Below are positions 1,345 through 7,506 of a stretch of 64,000 nt of DNA, piece after piece. Under the pieces are notes generated by a model, which saw nothing but the letters and a program-made list of their open reading frames with translations, made no database searches and was not told the origin of the DNA. Position 1 is the stretch's first letter. Each line of letters begins with the position of its first letter. Source of the stretch: Spirochaetota bacterium (lineage in GTDB: Bacteria; Spirochaetota; Brachyspiria; Brachyspirales; JACRPF01); contig JACRPF010000008.1 in the NCBI GenBank assembly GCA_016214035.1, positions 1 through 64,000 on the forward strand, in the 5' to 3' direction. Position numbers and translations under genes: made by a program.

Positions 1345-1713
1345 ATGGCACTCACAAAGACTCAGACGATCGGATTCTGCGAAGCGGTTATCGACTTCGT
1401 GGAGACGAACCGGGAAGCGCTTGCGAACCGCGGCGCGAACATCGACCAGCTTATCGCGGATCTCCGCGGGGAGACGGAAGCGGCGATGAACGCGAGCAGC
1501 GAGCATGAGACGCTCAAGGCGAAGATGCGGATAAGCACGGCAAAGACCGAAGCTCTGCTTAAGTCCGCGTACTACAACGCTTCGTCCAAGGTGGATACTA
1601 TCGCCGGCATGTACGGCAAGACCACCGAAATGGGCCGTCAAACTGCCCGCCTGCGGAGCACAATAGCCCGTGCGGCCCGGAAGACCGTCACAGCCGGTAA
1701 AGACGCCGCATGA
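1345..1713 (+). CDS. Small helical hypothetical protein
   Basis: 122 residues, not recognised. It is predicted largely alpha-helical and rich in Ala, Thr, Lys and Glu, with no signal peptide or membrane segment and a basic C-terminal tail (about residues 95–122). The start is well supported by GGAGGTG seven bases before ATG. It is transcribed divergently from the sigma factor, with ~115 bp between them, and is followed by a clear hairpin terminator at 1738. The divergent arrangement makes it a candidate target or partner of the sigma factor, but that is inference from position only. Confidence 0.75.
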   Translation: MALTKTQTIGFCEAVIDFVETNREALANRGANIDQLIADLRGETEAAMNASSEHETLKAKMRISTAKTEALLKSAYYNASSKVDTIAGMYGKTTEMGRQTARLRSTIARAARKTVTAGKDAA

Positions 1714-1790: not shown

Positions 1791-1830
1791 GTTGCTGTTT
1801 ATTGCAACAATACCCGCGAAGAACATTTTT

Positions 1831-1930
1831 CCGCACGACCTTGCGGAAAGTCCGCACGACCTTGCGGGAAGTCCGCACGACCTTGCGGGAAGTCCGCACG
1901 ACCTTGCGGAGAGTCCGCACGACCTTGCGG
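1831..1930. repeat. Tandem array of five 21-bp hairpin units
   Basis: Units begin at 1831, 1852, 1873, 1894 and 1915. Each holds the core CCGCACGACCTTGCGG, itself a palindrome (arms CCGCA and TGCGG, 6-base loop), joined by a 5-base linker (AAAGT, GAAGT, GAAGT, AGAGT); the last unit lacks its linker. The 21-bp period equals two helical turns and also seven codons, so all three minus-strand frames stay open across it as artefactual heptapeptide repeats. It sits between a terminator and the recombinase remnant. Its function is unknown; a multimerised protein-binding site or a hypervariable repeat are both possible. Confidence 0.85.
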
Positions 1931-1989: not shown

Positions 1990-2463
1990 ATGTTTGATAA
2001 TAGTATGAACATCGCACAGCAGAACAGCCGGGGCGTATCCATAACACACGACAGCGAGACCATTGAAGTCCGGTTTCCGTACAACATCGATACCGTGGAA
2101 CGCATACGCACGCTGCCCGGATGGATATGGGCCGATGGTACAGCGCCCTCAGATGCCATACGCCGGGAAACGGAAATACGCGGCTACAGCCCCCGTACGC
2201 GCGAAACGTATATCGATGTAAATATCAACTTTCTCCAATTCTGCGGAAAAAAACCGCAGGATGTTGTAAACGAAGACGTTACGGTACATTCACTCAGACA
2301 TAGTTTTGCAGCACATATGCTTGAAAACGGCGTTGATCTGAGGTATATACAGGAGATACTCGGCCATGCATCCAGCAAGACCACGGAGATATATACTCAT
2401 GTGGCAAAGAAATCCATCAGTATGATAAAAAGCCCCCTTGAGAAAATGCAGGTGAACGTATGA
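1990..2463 (+). pseudogene. Tyrosine recombinase with large internal deletion
   Basis: 157 residues remain of a protein that is normally about 350–400. The N-terminal part (about 18–55, ending near 'LPGWIWADG') matches the small leading domain found on many XerC/D- or phage-type tyrosine recombinases. It is followed by the start of the SAM-like core-binding domain (about 60–95, '[19 protein letters not shown]'). The sequence then jumps in frame to the C-terminal catalytic end: HSLRHSF (second Arg box), LGHASSKTT (His box) and TEIYTHV (Tyr nucleophile). The rest of the core-binding domain, the first catalytic Arg and the catalytic Lys region are absent, so it should be inactive. A second in-frame ATG at 2005 is possible. 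It lies upstream of, and reads toward, the cassette array, as a degenerate array recombinase might. Confidence 0.8.
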
Positions 2464-2591
2464 GTTGTGATATTTCAGTTGGTATTGCCGGAATACCGGC
2501 CTGTCTTTCGTATATGACACCGGAAAACGAAATAGTGCGAATGTCGTCTATTTCGCCGATTAGACCTTTTTACGAATTTCGTCTATTTGTA

Positions 2592-2616
2592 GTTGTACGA
2601 AATTTTCCGGGCCGAA
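2592..2616 (+). repeat. Left terminal inverted repeat of the defence cassette
   Basis: 25 bases beginning GTTGTACGAA and ending GGGCCGAA. It is the reverse complement of 5702–5726 with a single mismatch. Inside both copies lies TGTATTAC (2623–2630 on the left; reverse complement 5694–5701 on the right), offset on the left by six extra bases, and then a stem-loop. The outermost 7 bases (GTTGTAC) match the complement of the GTACAAC core of the adjoining attC-like element. No flanking target-site duplication is seen. Confidence 0.8.
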
Positions 2617-2630
2617 GCTGGTTGTATTAC

Positions 2631-2654
2631 TTTTCCGGCATCCGTGCCGGAAAA
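2631..2654. terminator. Perfect stem-loop upstream of the defence genes
   Basis: TTTTCCGGCA, loop TCCG, TGCCGGAAAA: a 10-bp perfect stem whose ends are T and A runs, able to terminate in either direction. It lies 20 bases before the first defence gene and mirrors the stem-loop at 5661–5693 on the other side. The pair therefore looks insulated from outside transcription, which implies a promoter of its own or an alternative role for this stem. Confidence 0.6.
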
Positions 2655-2674
2655 AACTGAAATTGGAGAAATAA

Positions 2675-3874
2675 ATGCCGAATTCTGATGGCGGATATTA
2701 TGCAATTAAAGGCTTTGCTTTTCAATTTGATAAAACTATCTTAGAACTATTAAATTCATCTGATGAAAACAAAGATTTATATTTTGAAAAAATTCAAGAT
2801 ATAAGTGATGATGATTATGTTATACAAGTAAAATATAAAGAAACTCAAGACTACTCAGATAATAAAATAAAAGAACCTGTTATTCAACTTATAGAAGAGT
2901 TTAAGCAAGATCAATCTAAGATCTACAACCTTTACTGCCATTTTAATAATGAAAGTTCACGAATTGAAACTATTGATAATGCAAAATTGGATTCAATTTT
3001 ATCTTTATCAACAGGAAAATCAAAAGATGCACTTAAACTTAACAAAAGAATAAATGCAATTGATACTAATGTAAGAAGTAGTTTTATAGCTAAATTCAAA
3101 TTAATATTTGCAACCACATACGATAATCAATTTCAGCAAATATTAATAAAATTGAAAACTTATAGTTTTGTTGGAGAAGGCGATGATGTTGCAATATTTT
3201 ATTATTCAAATATGGTTGATTATTTAAAAAGAATCATAATAAATAATACCGATCCAAAGAAAAGAAAATGTACTAAAAAGCAATTACTTAATTTTATTAA
3301 AACGGGTAAAAAGCTTATTTTTAACACATCATTTAAAGAATATAAAGGGGAACAAGCATTTTTATCTTTTATTAAATCAAAGTTTGTTAAAGCAAGAAAG
3401 AATCAAAATAATTTAATCAACCTTGGTGATTTACAAATAGATAGCTCCATTTCTTTAACCAAACTTATTATTGACATCACTGAAAGATATTTCAAAAAAT
3501 CTACTTTTGATATTGAACCTTTAACATTTGTTATAACCGACAATGAAGTAAATAATATTAAGAAAGATTTGATCAATAATGAGATATTATTCAATGATGG
3601 TTATGAAACTATTCAATTTAGTGAGAAGTTATTTTTATCACCAGCCATTAAAACAAAAAAAATAATAGGCCAAAAAGCATCCGATAGTTTGAATGAAATA
3701 TCATATAAATTTAGAATCCTTTCTAAATCAAATTTTGATATAATTACAAATCATGTTCAGTATCAAATGGCTTATTATTTTGATTCAGAAATAATAGATA
3801 AAATTTGTCCTTGCTCCTTTCTAAAAATTGATAATTTAAATACAAAATATATACATGACATATTTACATTTTAA
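2675..3874 (+). CDS. Cap4/DUF4297-like nuclease of a HerA-linked defence pair
   Basis: 399 residues, strongly AT-rich gene. The N-terminal ~60 residues have the layout of the restriction-like nuclease domain known from Cap4 and DUF4297 proteins: an early 'GYYAIKGFAFQF' segment with Q17, then an acidic strand (E38...D42) and the Q51-V-K53 catalytic-type motif. The remaining ~330 residues are Lys/Asn/Ile-rich and mostly helical, without a domain I recognise. The next gene, a HerA-type ATPase, begins 12 bases downstream and must be co-transcribed. Pairs of such nucleases with HerA are known anti-phage modules in which the nuclease assembles with the hexameric ATPase. The role here is inferred from that pairing. 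The start has GGAG about 6 nt upstream. Confidence 0.7.
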   Translation: MPNSDGGYYAIKGFAFQFDKTILELLNSSDENKDLYFEKIQDISDDDYVIQVKYKETQDYSDNKIKEPVIQLIEEFKQDQSKIYNLYCHFNNESSRIETIDNAKLDSILSLSTGKSKDALKLNKRINAIDTNVRSSFIAKFKLIFATTYDNQFQQILIKLKTYSFVGEGDDVAIFYYSNMVDYLKRIIINNTDPKKRKCTKKQLLNFIKTGKKLIFNTSFKEYKGEQAFLSFIKSKFVKARKNQNNLINLGDLQIDSSISLTKLIIDITERYFKKSTFDIEPLTFVITDNEVNNIKKDLINNEILFNDGYETIQFSEKLFLSPAIKTKKIIGQKASDSLNEISYKFRILSKSNFDIITNHVQYQMAYYFDSEIIDKICPCSFLKIDNLNTKYIHDIFTF

Positions 3875-3885
3875 GGAGAATCTAT

Positions 3886-5637
3886 ATGAATTCAGAGAAT
3901 TTTAAAATAGTTGGTGTTACCAGAAATATTGTAACAATTGAAATCCTCGATTCTACTCAATTTACAGGTCAATTTAATATTGGTAGTTATATTAAAATAC
4001 CCTATCAATGTGACTCTGAAAATTATATAATTGGTATAATAAAAAACTATAGAATTAAAAATATTGATTCACCTATTCCTGAAAGTACAATTTCGCAACC
4101 GAATTTTGTTATTGAAGTAGAATTGATAGGTTCATACAAAAAATATGATAATAAATACCTCTTTGAAAGAGGTGCTCATGGTATTCCATTACCACCAAAT
4201 AATGGAATAGAAATATTAAATGATGATGATTACTGTAATATTTATTCATGCAAAATAGAAGATAAAGAAATGTTTACATTTTCTAATCTAATACAAGATG
4301 AGAATATCAGAGTTCCTGTTAATGGTAATAAATTCTTTAATAAACATTTTGCTATAGTTGGTTCAACAGGTTCTGGGAAATCACATACTGTAGCAACAGT
4401 ATTACAACAAGCCATTAAAGAAAAAAATGTTGGGTATGATGGATTAAACAATTCTCATATTGTAATTTTTGATATACATGGTGAATATGTCAAAGCTTTT
4501 CCTATTGCCAATCATATAAACTCTAATAACATTAAAATCCCATATTGGTTATTTGATAGCGATGAATTAAGTGATTTATTTATTGAAAGTAATGAACAAA
4601 ACTCTCATAATCAAGTTTCTCAATTCCGATATGCAGTAACAGAAAACAAAAAGAAAGAGGATTTACTTAATAAAGCAGAGAGTAAAACACCACAAGATAG
4701 AATATACTTTGACACGCCATTAAAATTTAATATTGACGAAATCATTAATTATATAAAAAATATGAACAATGAATTGATTAATAAAAAGAAGAATAGAATT
4801 CCAACATCTAAAACAGGGGAGGAAATACTAAATAGAATTCCTAAATATTTTGAACAAGTTATTGAATTTGATAAAATTAATTCTGATCTTGTTAATGGGC
4901 CATTTACGGGTGACTTTGAGAGATTTATTTTACGCCTGGAAACAATTCGAAATAATCCAAGGTTAAAATTCTTATTTGACGACGCTTATACTTTATCTTT
5001 AGAAGATATTTTAAAACAATTTTTAGGGTACAACTCGAATAATTCAAATGTGACAGTTATTGATCTGTCTGGCATCCCATTTGAAGTTCTGAGTATCACA
5101 GTTTCACTAATATCCAGAATATTATTCGAATTCGGTTATTATTATAAAAAAATATTAGCTGAAAATATTGATTGTGAAACTCCTTTATTACTAGTATATG
5201 AAGAAGCACATAAATATGTACCTAGAAGTGAGTTAGTAAAATATAGAGCATCAAAAAATGCAATTGAAAGGATAGCAAAGGAAGGCAGAAAATATGGCGT
5301 TACACTTGGAATTGTAAGTCAACGCCCATCAGAAATATCTGAAACGATATTTTCTCAATGTAATAATTTTATAGCGATGAGGTTGACAAATCCTGATGAT
5401 CAAAATTATGTAAAAAGACTTCTCCCTGATAGTTTGGGTGATTTAACCGACTATTTACCCACACTTCAAGCAGGTGAAGCCTTATTGATCGGAGAGTCAA
5501 TTATAATTCCATCATTAGTAAAAATAGACTTTCCTGTTAATGAACCAAAATCAACTGATATTAAATATTTAGATCTTTGGAAAGAACAATGGAAAAATGT
5601 TAATTTTGAAAATATTACAAAAGAGTGGAAGAAATAA
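3886..5637 (+). CDS. HerA-family (HAS-barrel/DUF87) hexameric ATPase, defence-associated
   Basis: 583 residues. It has an N-terminal beta-barrel (HAS-barrel type, about residues 5–85) and Walker A GSTGSGKS at 159–166. Walker B is 'LLLVYEEAH' near residues 435–443. A C-terminal segment contains 'GRKYGVTLGIVSQRPSEIS', with the polar and arginine-finger positions typical of HerA/FtsK-fold ATPases. The C-terminal 'LQAGEALLIGE' strand is also a HerA family trait. Classical HerA works with NurA in DNA end processing. Here the partner is the Cap4-like nuclease just upstream (12-nt gap, good AAGGAG site), so an anti-phage DNA-degrading complex is the likely role. AT-rich and acquired by transfer. A terminator-like hairpin follows at 5661. 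Confidence 0.88.
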   Translation: MNSENFKIVGVTRNIVTIEILDSTQFTGQFNIGSYIKIPYQCDSENYIIGIIKNYRIKNIDSPIPESTISQPNFVIEVELIGSYKKYDNKYLFERGAHGIPLPPNNGIEILNDDDYCNIYSCKIEDKEMFTFSNLIQDENIRVPVNGNKFFNKHFAIVGSTGSGKSHTVATVLQQAIKEKNVGYDGLNNSHIVIFDIHGEYVKAFPIANHINSNNIKIPYWLFDSDELSDLFIESNEQNSHNQVSQFRYAVTENKKKEDLLNKAESKTPQDRIYFDTPLKFNIDEIINYIKNMNNELINKKKNRIPTSKTGEEILNRIPKYFEQVIEFDKINSDLVNGPFTGDFERFILRLETIRNNPRLKFLFDDAYTLSLEDILKQFLGYNSNNSNVTVIDLSGIPFEVLSITVSLISRILFEFGYYYKKILAENIDCETPLLLVYEEAHKYVPRSELVKYRASKNAIERIAKEGRKYGVTLGIVSQRPSEISETIFSQCNNFIAMRLTNPDDQNYVKRLLPDSLGDLTDYLPTLQAGEALLIGESIIIPSLVKIDFPVNEPKSTDIKYLDLWKEQWKNVNFENITKEWKK

Positions 5638-5660
5638 TTAATGTTTATTCGTTAAAGACT

Positions 5661-5693
5661 AAAAGCCTCCGCCTTCCTGGCTACGGCTTTTTT
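5661..5693 (+). terminator. Terminator hairpin after the defence genes
   Basis: AAAAGCC and GGCTTTT arms (7 bp) with an 17-base loop, followed by further T residues. It lies 24 bases after the HerA stop codon and just inside the right terminal inverted repeat. Confidence 0.65.
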
Positions 5694-5701
5694 GTAATAC
5701 A

Positions 5702-5726
5702 TTCGGCCCGGAAAACTTCGTACAAC
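5702..5726 (+). repeat. Right terminal inverted repeat of the defence cassette
   Basis: Begins TTCGGCCCGG and ends TTCGTACAAC. It pairs with 2592–2616 with one mismatch. Its outer 7 bases (GTACAAC, 5720–5726) double as the R''-like core of the attC-like element that follows. Confidence 0.8.
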
Positions 5727-5812
5727 ACGGTGTTCACGACATGCCTACCGTTCGCGGCTGCTCGCCGATTCGCCGCTACCCGGCACGCCGCAAACACCGG
5801 GGACGTTGTGCG
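5719..5812 (+). other. attC-like recombination site 1 (most complete)
   Basis: R''-like GTACAAC (5720–5726), then CGGTGTTCACGACATGCC. After a ~40-base variable part come GGCACGCCGCAAACACCG, a GGGAC spacer and R'-like GTTGTGC (5805–5811). The inner arms pair along about 16 positions with four transition differences (possible G·T pairs on one strand). Spacers next to the 7-mers are unequal (A versus GGGAC), as in integron attC sites with an unpaired central spacer. Length of ~92 bases is in the normal attC range. Confidence 0.65.
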
Positions 5813-5827
5813 ACATCGGCATTTCAT
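5805..5827 (+). repeat. Left end repeat of cassette B
   Basis: GTTGTGCGACATCGGC followed by ATTTCAT. It pairs with the cassette's right end (6405–6428, ATGAAATGCCGACGAT then CGCACAAC) over about 22 positions with one small indel. The inner part of this repeat is not shared with the other cassettes. Confidence 0.7.
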
Positions 5828-5838
5828 AATATATAAAT

Positions 5839-6405
5839 ATGTTTAAATTATTAATTACAGTTATTACAATTTTAATTTCATTGAGTTGTTCAAATAGCAA
5901 GTATTATGAACAAATTGATGAGAAAATATCAAGTAATGCAGAAGTAAAAAGCATTTGTAAATTATACAATTACTTCCAAAGGAATAAAGATAAATATAAA
6001 CTGTTAATTCCTTCGGTTCAGTCAGAAGTTAATATTGGCGATATTGGTTTGCTTCAAAAACGTTCGGAAATAATTGAAACATACGGAAACCCATTATTTG
6101 AAACTAAAACTAATGAATTTAATTGTACTACAATGTTTTATAAAGAAATGATAATCATATTTGGTGAGCCTGGTTTAATTTATAGTTTTATTAGCAACCC
6201 AATTTATTCAATAAAAAGCGATATTAAAATTGGTATGAAAGTAGAAGATGTGTTTAAATATTTAAATAAACATGAAAACACTAGTATTACAAAAAAAGAA
6301 GGAATTATTATAATAACTTCAAAGAATAGAATATTTTCATATATGTTGTATTGTAAAGATGGAATCGTTAAATATATCACTATGTATTTGATAAATATAG
6401 GTTAA
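5839..6405 (+). CDS. Cassette-borne putative lipoprotein
   Basis: 188 residues, AT-rich, family not recognised. Residues 1–17 form a signal sequence ending 'LISLSC', a relaxed lipobox of the kind spirochaetes tolerate, so a lipid-anchored protein is likely. The mature part is Lys/Ile/Asn-rich and probably mixed alpha/beta. No clear ribosome binding site precedes ATG 5839, common for cassette genes. The stop codon abuts the right inverted repeat of its cassette (6405–6428), so gene and repeat fit together with no spare sequence. Function unknown. Confidence 0.7.
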   Translation: MFKLLITVITILISLSCSNSKYYEQIDEKISSNAEVKSICKLYNYFQRNKDKYKLLIPSVQSEVNIGDIGLLQKRSEIIETYGNPLFETKTNEFNCTTMFYKEMIIIFGEPGLIYSFISNPIYSIKSDIKIGMKVEDVFKYLNKHENTSITKKEGIIIITSKNRIFSYMLYCKDGIVKYITMYLINIG

Positions 6406-6428
6406 TGAAATGCCGACGATCGCACAAC
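6405..6428 (+). repeat. Right end repeat of cassette B
   Basis: Reverse-complement partner of 5805–5827. It starts in the TAA stop of the lipoprotein gene and ends in the GCACAAC core (6422–6428). Confidence 0.7.
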
Positions 6429-6440
6429 ACGGTGTTCGAA
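6420..6440 (+). other. attC-like site 2 (collapsed)
   Basis: GCACAACACGGTGTTCGAA: the R''-like half of site 1 is kept, but the variable region and the L'–R' half are missing, leaving only about 20 bases between adjoining cassettes. It looks like deletion of the hairpin arm, with the junction near the GTGTTC/GTTGTGC microhomology. Confidence 0.5.
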
Positions 6441-6460
6441 ATTGACCGCATTGAGGCAAC
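6434..6460 (+). repeat. Left end repeat of cassette C
   Basis: GTTCGAAATTGACCGCATTG then AGGCAAC. It pairs with 6872–6897 (GGCAACTGTGGTCAACTT then CGCACAAC), sharing CGAA, TTGACC and CA..TTG blocks. It also carries the TTGAGG ribosome-binding sequence for the gene at 6461. Confidence 0.6.
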
Positions 6461-6865
6461 ATGAAAGTCGATTTTATTAATAGGCCGATATGGATAAAAA
6501 TATTTGTAGTGTTGTTTTCCATTTGTTTGCTGGGCGCAACGTATAATCATATCAATGATTTAATTAAAGGCGGATTTTTACCTTATACTAAATGGATGGG
6601 TGCGCCCATAGGATTAAATATATACTGGACATCACTAACGTTTCTTAACCCACTAGCAGTTGTATTACTATTTTTATCCTTACGTGTGGGTATATATTTA
6701 CTAAATATCATCATAATATCAGATGTTATAATAAATATGTATTCCTGTTATCATTATTATCATATAACCTTCTTTGAGAATACTGGCTTACAGCAGCAAT
6801 TGGCTTTTATGATTGTTGTAGTAGTAATAAGTCCGTTCATTTATTTATACAGTAAGGCAAAATAA
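6461..6865 (+). CDS. Cassette-borne small membrane protein
   Basis: 134 residues, AT-rich. Four hydrophobic segments are visible (about residues 13–30, 58–75, 78–100 and 112–130), so an inner-membrane protein with little outside the membrane is likely. The segment between the first two ('GGFLPYTKWMGAP') is the only polar stretch. The start ATG 6461 is preceded by a GAGG within the cassette's left repeat. Family not recognised; cassette membrane proteins of this size are common and mostly uncharacterised. Confidence 0.7.
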   Translation: MKVDFINRPIWIKIFVVLFSICLLGATYNHINDLIKGGFLPYTKWMGAPIGLNIYWTSLTFLNPLAVVLLFLSLRVGIYLLNIIIISDVIINMYSCYHYYHITFFENTGLQQQLAFMIVVVVISPFIYLYSKAK

Positions 6866-6871
6866 AAGGAT

Positions 6872-6897
6872 GGCAACTGTGGTCAACTTCGCACAAC
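6872..6897 (+). repeat. Right end repeat of cassette C
   Basis: Imperfect reverse complement of 6434–6460, ending in the GCACAAC core (6891–6897). It begins seven bases after the membrane protein stop codon. Confidence 0.6.
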
Positions 6898-6910
6898 ACG
6901 GTGTACGAAA
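6889..6910 (+). other. attC-like site 3 (collapsed)
   Basis: TCGCACAACACGGTGTACGAA, itself nearly palindromic. As in site 2, only the R''-like half survives, fused to the start of the next cassette. Confidence 0.5.
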
Positions 6911-6924
6911 ACGGCGTTGAAAAA
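6901..6924 (+). repeat. Left end repeat of cassette D
   Basis: GTGTACGAAAACGGCGTTGA then AAAA. It pairs with 7364–7388 (TTTTTTAACGCCGTCAT then CGCACAAC) over about 20 positions with three or four differences. The ACGGCGTT block is unique to this cassette. Confidence 0.65.
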
Positions 6925-6934
6925 GGAATAATTA

Positions 6935-7357
6935 ATGAATGAGTTTAAAGAAATAGAAAAGCGAATCAGAAAAATGTTTGAAACAAATACAATTCCGGAA
7001 GTGAGTGATGAAAGTCTTCGCTTTTGCATCAAATATTTGAATGAAAATCTAGAATTCCCGTTTGAAATCACTGGCAGTGAGGATTTCCCATGGGAAGAGA
7101 AATACATATTTGGTTTTGGGAGCAAAGATGAGTGGGAAGAAGAAAAAATGAACAAACCTTCATATAAAGACACTTACATGGCGCTTGAAGTTATTCCATA
7201 TTATGACCGTTATGGCCTGTATATAAAAGCCAAAAGGACATCAAGAATGAAGCGTAAAAAGTTCGATTTAATTTTAGGATTTATTACGTGTACGGAGAAA
7301 GAAGGTAAAAATGGAAATATTATTGAAGCTTACAAAGTATGGAGAGCAAATTATTAG
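6935..7357 (+). CDS. Cassette-borne acidic protein, possibly CcbP-like
   Basis: 140 residues, AT-rich. The stretch 'CIKYLNENLEFPFEITG' followed by 'GSKDEWEEEKM' resembles the small calcium-binding protein family typified by cyanobacterial CcbP, whose members often have a 'Y..L...L.FPFEA' opening. That link is from memory of the motif and is tentative. No signal peptide or membrane segment, so cytoplasmic. The ATG is preceded by AAAGGA at good spacing. The downstream T-run (7361–7369) that forms the cassette's right repeat may also help terminate transcription. Confidence 0.7.
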   Translation: MNEFKEIEKRIRKMFETNTIPEVSDESLRFCIKYLNENLEFPFEITGSEDFPWEEKYIFGFGSKDEWEEEKMNKPSYKDTYMALEVIPYYDRYGLYIKAKRTSRMKRKKFDLILGFITCTEKEGKNGNIIEAYKVWRANY

Positions 7358-7363
7358 AGATTT

Positions 7364-7388
7364 TTTTTTAACGCCGTCATCGCACAAC
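7364..7388 (+). repeat. Right end repeat of cassette D
   Basis: Partner of 6901–6924, ending in GCACAAC (7382–7388). Confidence 0.65.
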
Positions 7389-7421
7389 AGCGGCACGTCG
7401 CAAACACCGGGGACGTTGTGC
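7381..7421 (+). other. attC-like site 4 (left half deleted)
   Basis: GCACAAC (7382–7388) is followed directly by the right half of the element: GGCACGTCGCAAACACCG, GGGAC, GTTGTGC (7415–7421). This right half is identical to site 1 (5783–5811) over about 30 bases apart from one change, while the CGGTGTTCACGAC arm is missing. Confidence 0.6.
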
Positions 7422-7486
7422 TCAATTGCGCTGAGGCATGCAGCTGAAATGGAGCTGGAATAAACCTGAGCGCAGCAACGCACAGC
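7415..7486 (+). other. Empty 72-bp mini-cassette
   Basis: It runs from GTTGTGC (7415) to a degenerate GCACAGC core (7480–7486). The ends hold TTGCGCTGAGG (7425–7435) and CCTGAGCGCAG (7465–7475), again an inverted repeat of the kind seen at the ends of the gene-bearing cassettes. No ORF fits inside. Confidence 0.45.
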
Positions 7487-7506
7487 GCGGTTTTCACGAC
7501 GTTCGG
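7478..7506 (+). other. attC-like site 5 (degenerate, last in array)
   Basis: CGCACAGCGCGGTTTTCACGAC resembles the R''–L'' half of site 1 with several changes. No GTTGTGC partner follows before 7690, so the array appears to end here. Confidence 0.4.

Follow-up and report, generated by a model that had tools for sequence, protein, structure and literature searches.

The DNA analysed here (the window, 64,000 nucleotides, G000:C22:1-64000) belongs to a Spirochaetota genome of 5.2 Mb in 22 contigs. After a GC-rich stretch that contains a sigma-factor-like ORF and a small gene come the remnant of a tyrosine recombinase gene, the AT-rich cassettes A to D and cassette E, which has no ORF (Table 1). 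According to matches with PADLOC and Pfam models, cassette A is predicted to encode DUF4297 together with HerA, a combination that is an established kind of anti-phage module. The small ORFs in cassettes B, C and D had no family match in Pfam or PADLOC.

Table 1. Positions of the recombinase remnant, the attI-like head and the cassettes in the window.
Feature	Position	Strand	Start arm / end arm	Remarks
Tyrosine recombinase remnant	1990..2463	+		Pfam PF00589 positions 124-171/172 only, plus PF13495
attI-like head	2537..2592	+		Two copies of CGAATnTCGTCTATTT (2537-2556, 2572-2592); putative crossover G2592^T2593
Cassette A	2592..5804	+	2592-2616 / 5702-5726
Cassette A, gene 1	2675..3874	+		DUF4297-like effector, HerA-type anti-phage system (predicted; PADLOC PDLC02187, E=1.9e-30)
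Cassette A, gene 2	3886..5637	+		HerA-like ATPase (predicted; PADLOC PDLC02188, E=6.8e-208; Pfam DUF87)
Cassette A, full attC-like interior	5727-5804	+		18-bp bottom-strand hairpin
Cassette B	5805..6430	+	5805-5827 / 6405-6428	Short lipoprotein-like ORF 5839-6405
Cassette C	6431..6899	+	6431-6447 / 6881-6897	Membrane-protein-like ORF 6461-6865
Cassette D	6900..7414	+	6900-6918 / 7370-7388	ORF 6935-7357
Cassette E	7415..7485	+	7415-7436 / 7464-7485	No ORF; arms weak

Private inverted repeats at the cassette ends

The start of each cassette was compared with the reverse complement of its end. The arms of cassette A form an inverted repeat of 25 nt with 24/25 identical positions (96%), those of cassette B match in 21 of 24 aligned columns with one 1-nt gap and run to ...CATTTCAT, and identity amounted to 14/17 in cassette C, 15/19 in cassette D and only 14/22 in cassette E. 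Pairing of A to E with their own ends surpassed the other arrangements among all 120 permutations, whether the first 7 nt were included or not, and shuffling gave P values of 0/5000 for each of A to D and approximately 0.03-0.04 for E. A first-pass annotation, made from sequence alone, had claimed cassette-specific inverted end repeats in A to E, and this claim held, albeit weakly for E. Its additional claim that all cassettes start with a GTTGTGC-type sequence failed for C (GGTGTTC) and D (GGTGTAC). The end repeats were not refuted by two further checks, since the complementarity was absent from randomised or mismatched ends and long arms were present in related arrays elsewhere. Chance complementarity or an origin of the arms as terminal inverted repeats of small transposons can be all but excluded. 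Transposons, too, are defined by inverted repeats that flank a gene, but the permutation and shuffle tests contradict both explanations, every cassette has repeats of its own, cassettes A to D encode no transposase, and attC-like interiors link the units in head-to-tail order. Intrinsic transcription terminators were also rejected as the purpose of the arms, which are approximately 70 to 4300 nt apart and cannot form a single RNA hairpin.

The only full attC-like site in the window array is site A (5718-5811), a palindromic site with AAC...GTT boxes, L boxes and an unpaired central spacer. Its fold contains no extrahelical base, and the value for its core was -25.0 on the bottom strand versus -15.7 on the top strand. 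The same architecture of boxes and spacer is present at full sites on contigs C11, C6, C2 and C19 and in relatives, but missing between B and C (6429-6430) and between C and D (6898-6899), where approximately 2 nt separate the R boxes and no attC hairpin of its own remains. In the interior of site D (7389-7414), the left hairpin arm is missing. Loss of the hairpin with retention of the private arms was observed at these three positions of the window and additionally at the third site of the C2 array (L189) and the second site of the C19 array (L190), and the break points recur in the left hairpin arm. Such sites could either have decayed by deletion of the hairpin or represent a reduced functional form.

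Folding of the bottom strand as a circle or as a segment of the linear array yielded -51.0 versus -27.6 kcal/mol for site A, -22.5 versus -5.9 for site B, -10.7 versus -6.0 for site C and -19.5 versus -12.5 for site D. These values support the earlier proposal that the arms lengthen the attC-like stem in an excised circle.

In the recombinase remnant, an N-terminal extension and the start of the SAM-like domain are fused to the C-terminal HxxR-H-Y part, and the alignment shows that the middle, including the catalytic Arg and Lys, is deleted. The C-terminal 63 amino acids are 70% identical to the recombinase of locus L283 and 54% identical to the best IntI, and the remnant differs from both XerC and XerD of this genome. 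It is nearest to the array-linked recombinases without an I2 domain that are described below. An intact recombinase of this type had no match at E<=1e-45 in the genome of the window, where the remnant as query retrieved only XerC/XerD-like, IntI and distant matches. In the attI-like head, 8/11 positions match the cassette-side arm in inverted orientation across a spacer of 6 nt. Because the middle of the recombinase is lost, no intact homologue was found in the genome and three sites are damaged, the window array is probably a decayed relic in which the arms are still legible. With the recombinase deleted and several sites decayed, activity of the window array is unsupported, and it is an inference that the array formerly relied on the recombinase that is now deleted.

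Tandem repeats in which the unit is exactly 21 bp long but differs in sequence from locus to locus were noticed in the window (1830-1930) and on contigs C11 (L026:5096-5146), C16 (L024:14238-14437) and C2 (L189, minus-strand positions 1141-1416). In the window and on C2, they lie after a small gene of one family (window 1345-1713; C2 copy 53% identical).

Long-arm arrays in the same genome and in other Spirochaetota

The head element, CGAATTTCGTCTATTTGTA followed by GTTG, was detected on four contigs, C22 (the window), C11, C2 and C19, in each case with window-type cassettes after it, and a further pair of sites flanks a glycosyltransferase-like gene on C6. The 13 cassettes at these five loci (the window and four others) have arms of approximately 15-33 nt. 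Beyond position 12, the score of a cassette's own arms was 8.8 compared to 1.15 for mismatched arms (0/10000 permutations). In gapped alignment, 12 of the 13 cassettes have an A at position 11 of the start and a G at this position of the reverse-complemented end, so that the bottom strand carries a G.T wobble there and the top strand an A.C mismatch. The hairpin itself has fixed bottom-strand G.T pairs at columns 23/132, 24/131 and 29/126. Among the other arm mismatches in the cassettes of this genome, a bias towards wobbles was not significant (15 versus 11). The long-arm arrays outside the window (C11:65572-66600, C2:32082 downwards, C19:258872 downwards and C6:64841-63826) are without an integrase, and their cargo comprises an Mrr-like type IV restriction gene, the glycosyltransferase-like gene and others.

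As a baseline, attC sites of conventional IntI arrays from Spirochaetota and other phyla were located by recurrent hairpins near intI genes without use of the cassette ends. Among 177 cassettes from 23 IntI array loci, the own match amounted to 0.76-0.89 at positions 4-8 and dropped almost to background at position 9 and beyond, and mismatched pairs dropped sooner. In the loci examined, a private match of 8 nt is thus ordinary in IntI arrays, but longer arms are not. The signature of long arms that carry the A/G mark at position 11 (score >=15) was found once in 1622 kb of IntI loci and not at all in reversed sequences. One possible long-arm pair with the position-11 mark, located within an IntI locus of an IntI-bearing genome (G349, L085:7959-8444), may be part of a mixed array or due to chance.

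Relatives of the window sites were selected with a covariance model of the hairpin alone on the bottom strand, from which the arms were excluded. This model identified sites in six other Spirochaetota genomes, and a partner arm (score >=13, within 5 kb) was found for 16 of 18 flanks but for 0 of 270 shuffled arms. At locus L215, a full tyrosine recombinase (5795-6934, minus strand) adjoins the array. A search of 393 genomes of the phylum with this protein produced matches in 67, and the genomes with the long-arm/recombinase system represent at least 14 Spirochaetota families. The finder for recurrent hairpins, which worked for IntI arrays, had a low recall for the long-arm class (8 cassettes), and therefore the arms themselves were used for detection, a selective procedure for which reversed sequence and IntI loci served as controls. 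The A/G mark was present in 29 of the 40 long-arm pairs with a score >=15 in 508 kb of recombinase loci and in 18 of 19 such pairs in 109 kb of loci found with the hairpin model. In a set of 60 class cassettes from 23 loci, the own match was high up to position 20-21 and the median arm length was 21 nt. This set was pre-selected for A/G at position 11, in contrast to unselected tallies such as the two given before. An ORF of >=50 amino acids was present in 49 of the 60 cassettes, in 39 of them in array direction. The cargo matched restriction/modification genes, a YoeB-type toxin, a PD-Lambda-3-type protein and transposases, and many cargo proteins had no family.

Long-arm A/G pairs were present in 19 of 42 inspected recombinase loci. 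Of the 19 loci with an array, 17 contain only pairs that point away from the recombinase; one pair is reversed at L273, and the array at L214 runs towards the recombinase. In 12 loci, the array begins 80-500 bp from the recombinase gene, either divergently or after its 3' end. Approximately 23 of the 42 recombinase loci had no array, among which many contigs end less than 1 kb from the gene and a handful have room for one. Contigs ending within approximately 700 bp of the recombinase gene were L250-L254, L268, L272, L277, L278, L281 and G001:C109. Most of the genomes are fragmentary MAGs; array repeats may break assemblies, and the number of platforms in MAGs is probably underestimated. Scanning with the recombinase revealed no relative in the viral contigs and only two distant XerA proteins (40% identity) in the plasmids.

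Array-linked recombinases without the IntI insertion and sites without extrahelical bases

The L215 protein had its best NCBIfam match to XerA (NF040815, 227 bits) and stayed below the cut-off for integron integrases (209.6 versus 265). The best structure matches of the array-linked recombinase were likewise to XerA (PDB 4a8e and 5hxy). The spacing between the GKGxKDR and HxxRH motifs was 58-64 residues in 27 array-type recombinases, 100-103 residues in 22 IntI proteins and 66 residues in the genome's own Xer. An integrase with the IntI-specific additional (I2) domain is a criterion for integrons (Messier and Roy 2001, PMC9668308). This insertion is absent from the array-type recombinases, where the block is visibly missing in the alignment, and the array-linked proteins possess an N-terminal extension of approximately 100 residues. 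In a maximum-likelihood tree, the 22 IntI proteins formed a single clade with a support of 100/100 and the 27 array-type recombinases were placed outside. This tree was rooted on two Xer rows only and leaves unresolved whether the 27 proteins have a sister or an ancestral position.

A single-base bulge of the extrahelical type in the L stem was found in 1 of 21 class sites compared to 198 of 216 sites in IntI arrays. IntI uses extrahelical bases together with the unpaired central spacer and the terminal structure for strand choice (PMC2727003). A recombinase without the I2 domain thus meets sites without extrahelical bases, which are the target of this domain. The mean difference between circle and linear form was -13.1 kcal/mol in the class and -2.5 kcal/mol in IntI arrays (P=2e-11), and in the circle form the bottom strand was more stable than the top strand in 21 of 21 class sites. 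The first-pass annotation had also raised the possibility of a different class of mobile cassette. This is supported by the restriction of IntI arrays to a match of 8 nt and by the long-arm cassettes being a coherent set that is tied to another recombinase.

It is unlikely that the window contains an ordinary integron remnant (CALIN), in which the cassettes were assembled and are still moved by the IntI encoded on contig C16, with the long arms merely reflecting a lineage-specific quirk of the R boxes. In favor of this explanation, the C16 IntI is intact (375 bits) and adjoins its own conventional array (G000:C16:286828-291413; L024:14808-19414), in which the private arms already measure 11-12 nt, intermediate and above the usual 8. 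This array is truncated by the contig end, and several of its cassettes resemble repeated AT-rich units without long ORFs. However, arrays adjacent to intI in Spirochaetota and other phyla do not show long arms or the A/G mark, the C16 sites have bulged hairpins of another type whereas window-type sites are free of bulges, and long-arm arrays elsewhere adjoin a recombinase without I2, the type to which the window remnant belongs. The reading of the window array as a conventional integron was ruled out, as I2 and extrahelical bases are missing.

The first approximately 12 nt of the arms (GTTrtgCGAAAT) are partly common to the cassettes, and positions 13 to approximately 21 are private. In paralogous cassettes (L274, L280), three arm positions were changed on both sides and none on one side only. 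Although few, these concerted changes point in the direction of selection or of copying that keeps the arms paired. Alternatively, the arms might be scars of cassette birth without any later role, left when a single strand with a folded 3' end used this end as primer for a short fold-back copy of the sequence before it, prior to circularisation. Every cassette has an inner part of its own, which repeats sequence adjacent to the gene end, and fold-back copying would be expected to yield exactly such a geometry. We nevertheless consider this explanation improbable: The arms vary rather little in length, almost every cassette shows the same directed difference at position 11, and scars should decay one side at a time, in contrast to the 3/3 joint changes in the paralogues.

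Little also favors the explanation that the arms serve exclusively as double-stranded binding sites for the recombinase and its N-terminal extension, with an Xer-type exchange between direct-repeat L'-R' cores. It agrees with the lack of the domain that IntI uses on folded single strands and with the attI of L289, which contains an 11-6-11 core site (AATTCGCATAA-AAGGAG-TTATGCGAAAT) with a right arm of the type seen in the first approximately 12 nt of cassettes. The inner 8-9 nt vary between cassettes and are therefore ill-suited to recognition of a fixed sequence, the two arms of a cassette match each other and not a shared motif, and the hairpins and bottom-strand wobbles are kept, all of which argues against purely double-stranded recognition.

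A putative integron-like platform and its relation to known systems

The reading that we prefer, with a probability of roughly 0.7, is that the window array is a decayed copy of a distinct, I2-less integron-like cassette platform of Spirochaetota. The arms, the wobble, the gain in stem, the adjacency and orientation of arrays relative to the recombinase and the absence of the I2 insertion and of extrahelical bases are shown by our analyses. In the proposed mechanism, an Xer-like tyrosine recombinase without the IntI insertion would join a double-stranded attI to the cassette site at G^TT. In the circle, the last approximately 21 nt of the cassette (the private part, then ACTTCGCACAAC) would flank one side of the attC-like hairpin and the first approximately 21 nt (GTTGTGCGAAAT, then the private part) the other side, so that both flanks could pair, with the first approximately 12 nt acting as R' arm. 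The bottom strand would thereby form a single long stem without bulges, in imitation of a double-stranded core site. Polarity may arise from G.T wobbles that exist only on the bottom strand, especially at position 11, in place of the extrahelical bases used by IntI. By analogy with XerCD acting on CTXphi, where the stem of the site imitates double-stranded DNA (PMC4792948), an enzyme without I2 may need a long stem of this kind. In the linear array, the arms cannot pair because each site faces the start of the neighboring cassette. Circles would be better substrates than arrayed sites, since the stem is complete only in the circle, and the system should consequently lean towards insertion over excision. 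Circle formation, strand choice, the insertion bias and every recombination step are inferred, as no recombination, circle or strand preference was observed. If the arms do favor circles over arrayed sites, they would constitute a simple device that drives insertion. Against the preferred reading, it is conceivable that the arrays in the genome of the window are relics or rely on the C16 IntI, because no intact I2-less recombinase was found in that genome. The handful of recombinase loci that have room for an array but none, the opposite direction of the L214 array and the finding that inverted attI arms are convincing at a few loci only, and thus not general, likewise speak against it.

A bolder and less probable interpretation regards the I2-less platforms as sisters of the integrons or as their surviving forerunners. 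Under this tentative hypothesis, an Xer-like enzyme might have captured cassettes first, with recognition through long, fully paired, cassette-specific arms, and the I2 domain and extrahelical bases of modern integrons might have been acquired later and made long arms dispensable. Integron integrases are thought to have gained the ability to recombine single-strand hairpins through the I2 helix, and intermediates are lacking according to the authors (PMC7790495). The combination of an I2-less recombinase, bulge-free sites and long arms would make this transition testable with natural proteins and DNA. Searches with IntegronFinder require the IntI-specific domain (PMC9668308), and a search with this requirement would miss these platforms as integrons, despite their presence in at least 14 families and their defence and other genes.

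We found no account of such a system in the open-access literature searched, which did not cover preprints and subscription papers. Integrons (IntI/attI/attC), including the sedentary chromosomal integrons of Treponema, resemble the new class in head-to-tail cassettes joined at G^TT with AAC...GTT boxes, in imperfectly palindromic sites that fold better on the bottom strand and in the position of the recombinase gene and a putative attI at the head of the array, in divergent as well as same-direction layouts. In contrast to integrons, the new class has a recombinase without the IntI insertion, sites without extrahelical bases and cassette-specific arms of approximately 21 nt with a fixed A/G at position 11, compared to a match of 8 nt in integrons. 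Like a CALIN, the window array lacks a functional integrase next to it, but it possesses an attI-like head and the remnant of a recombinase of another type, and its sites were unlike IntI-type attC in the comparisons made and lack extrahelical bases. IMEX and CTXphi exploit the host XerCD by folding a single strand into a mimic of dif (PMC4792948, PMC7790495). They share with the new class an Xer-type enzyme that has no I2 and, as inferred here, a long stem free of bulges that imitates a double-stranded core. However, the class has a dedicated recombinase gene beside arrays of multiple cassettes, private arms and no sign of dif, and does not meet the IMEX criterion of lacking an own recombinase and using the host XerC/XerD at dif, since its arrays adjoin their own recombinase. 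XerA (NF040815) is the best match of the array-linked recombinase in both family and structure, from which the latter is distinguished by its N-terminal extension and its association with cassette arrays.
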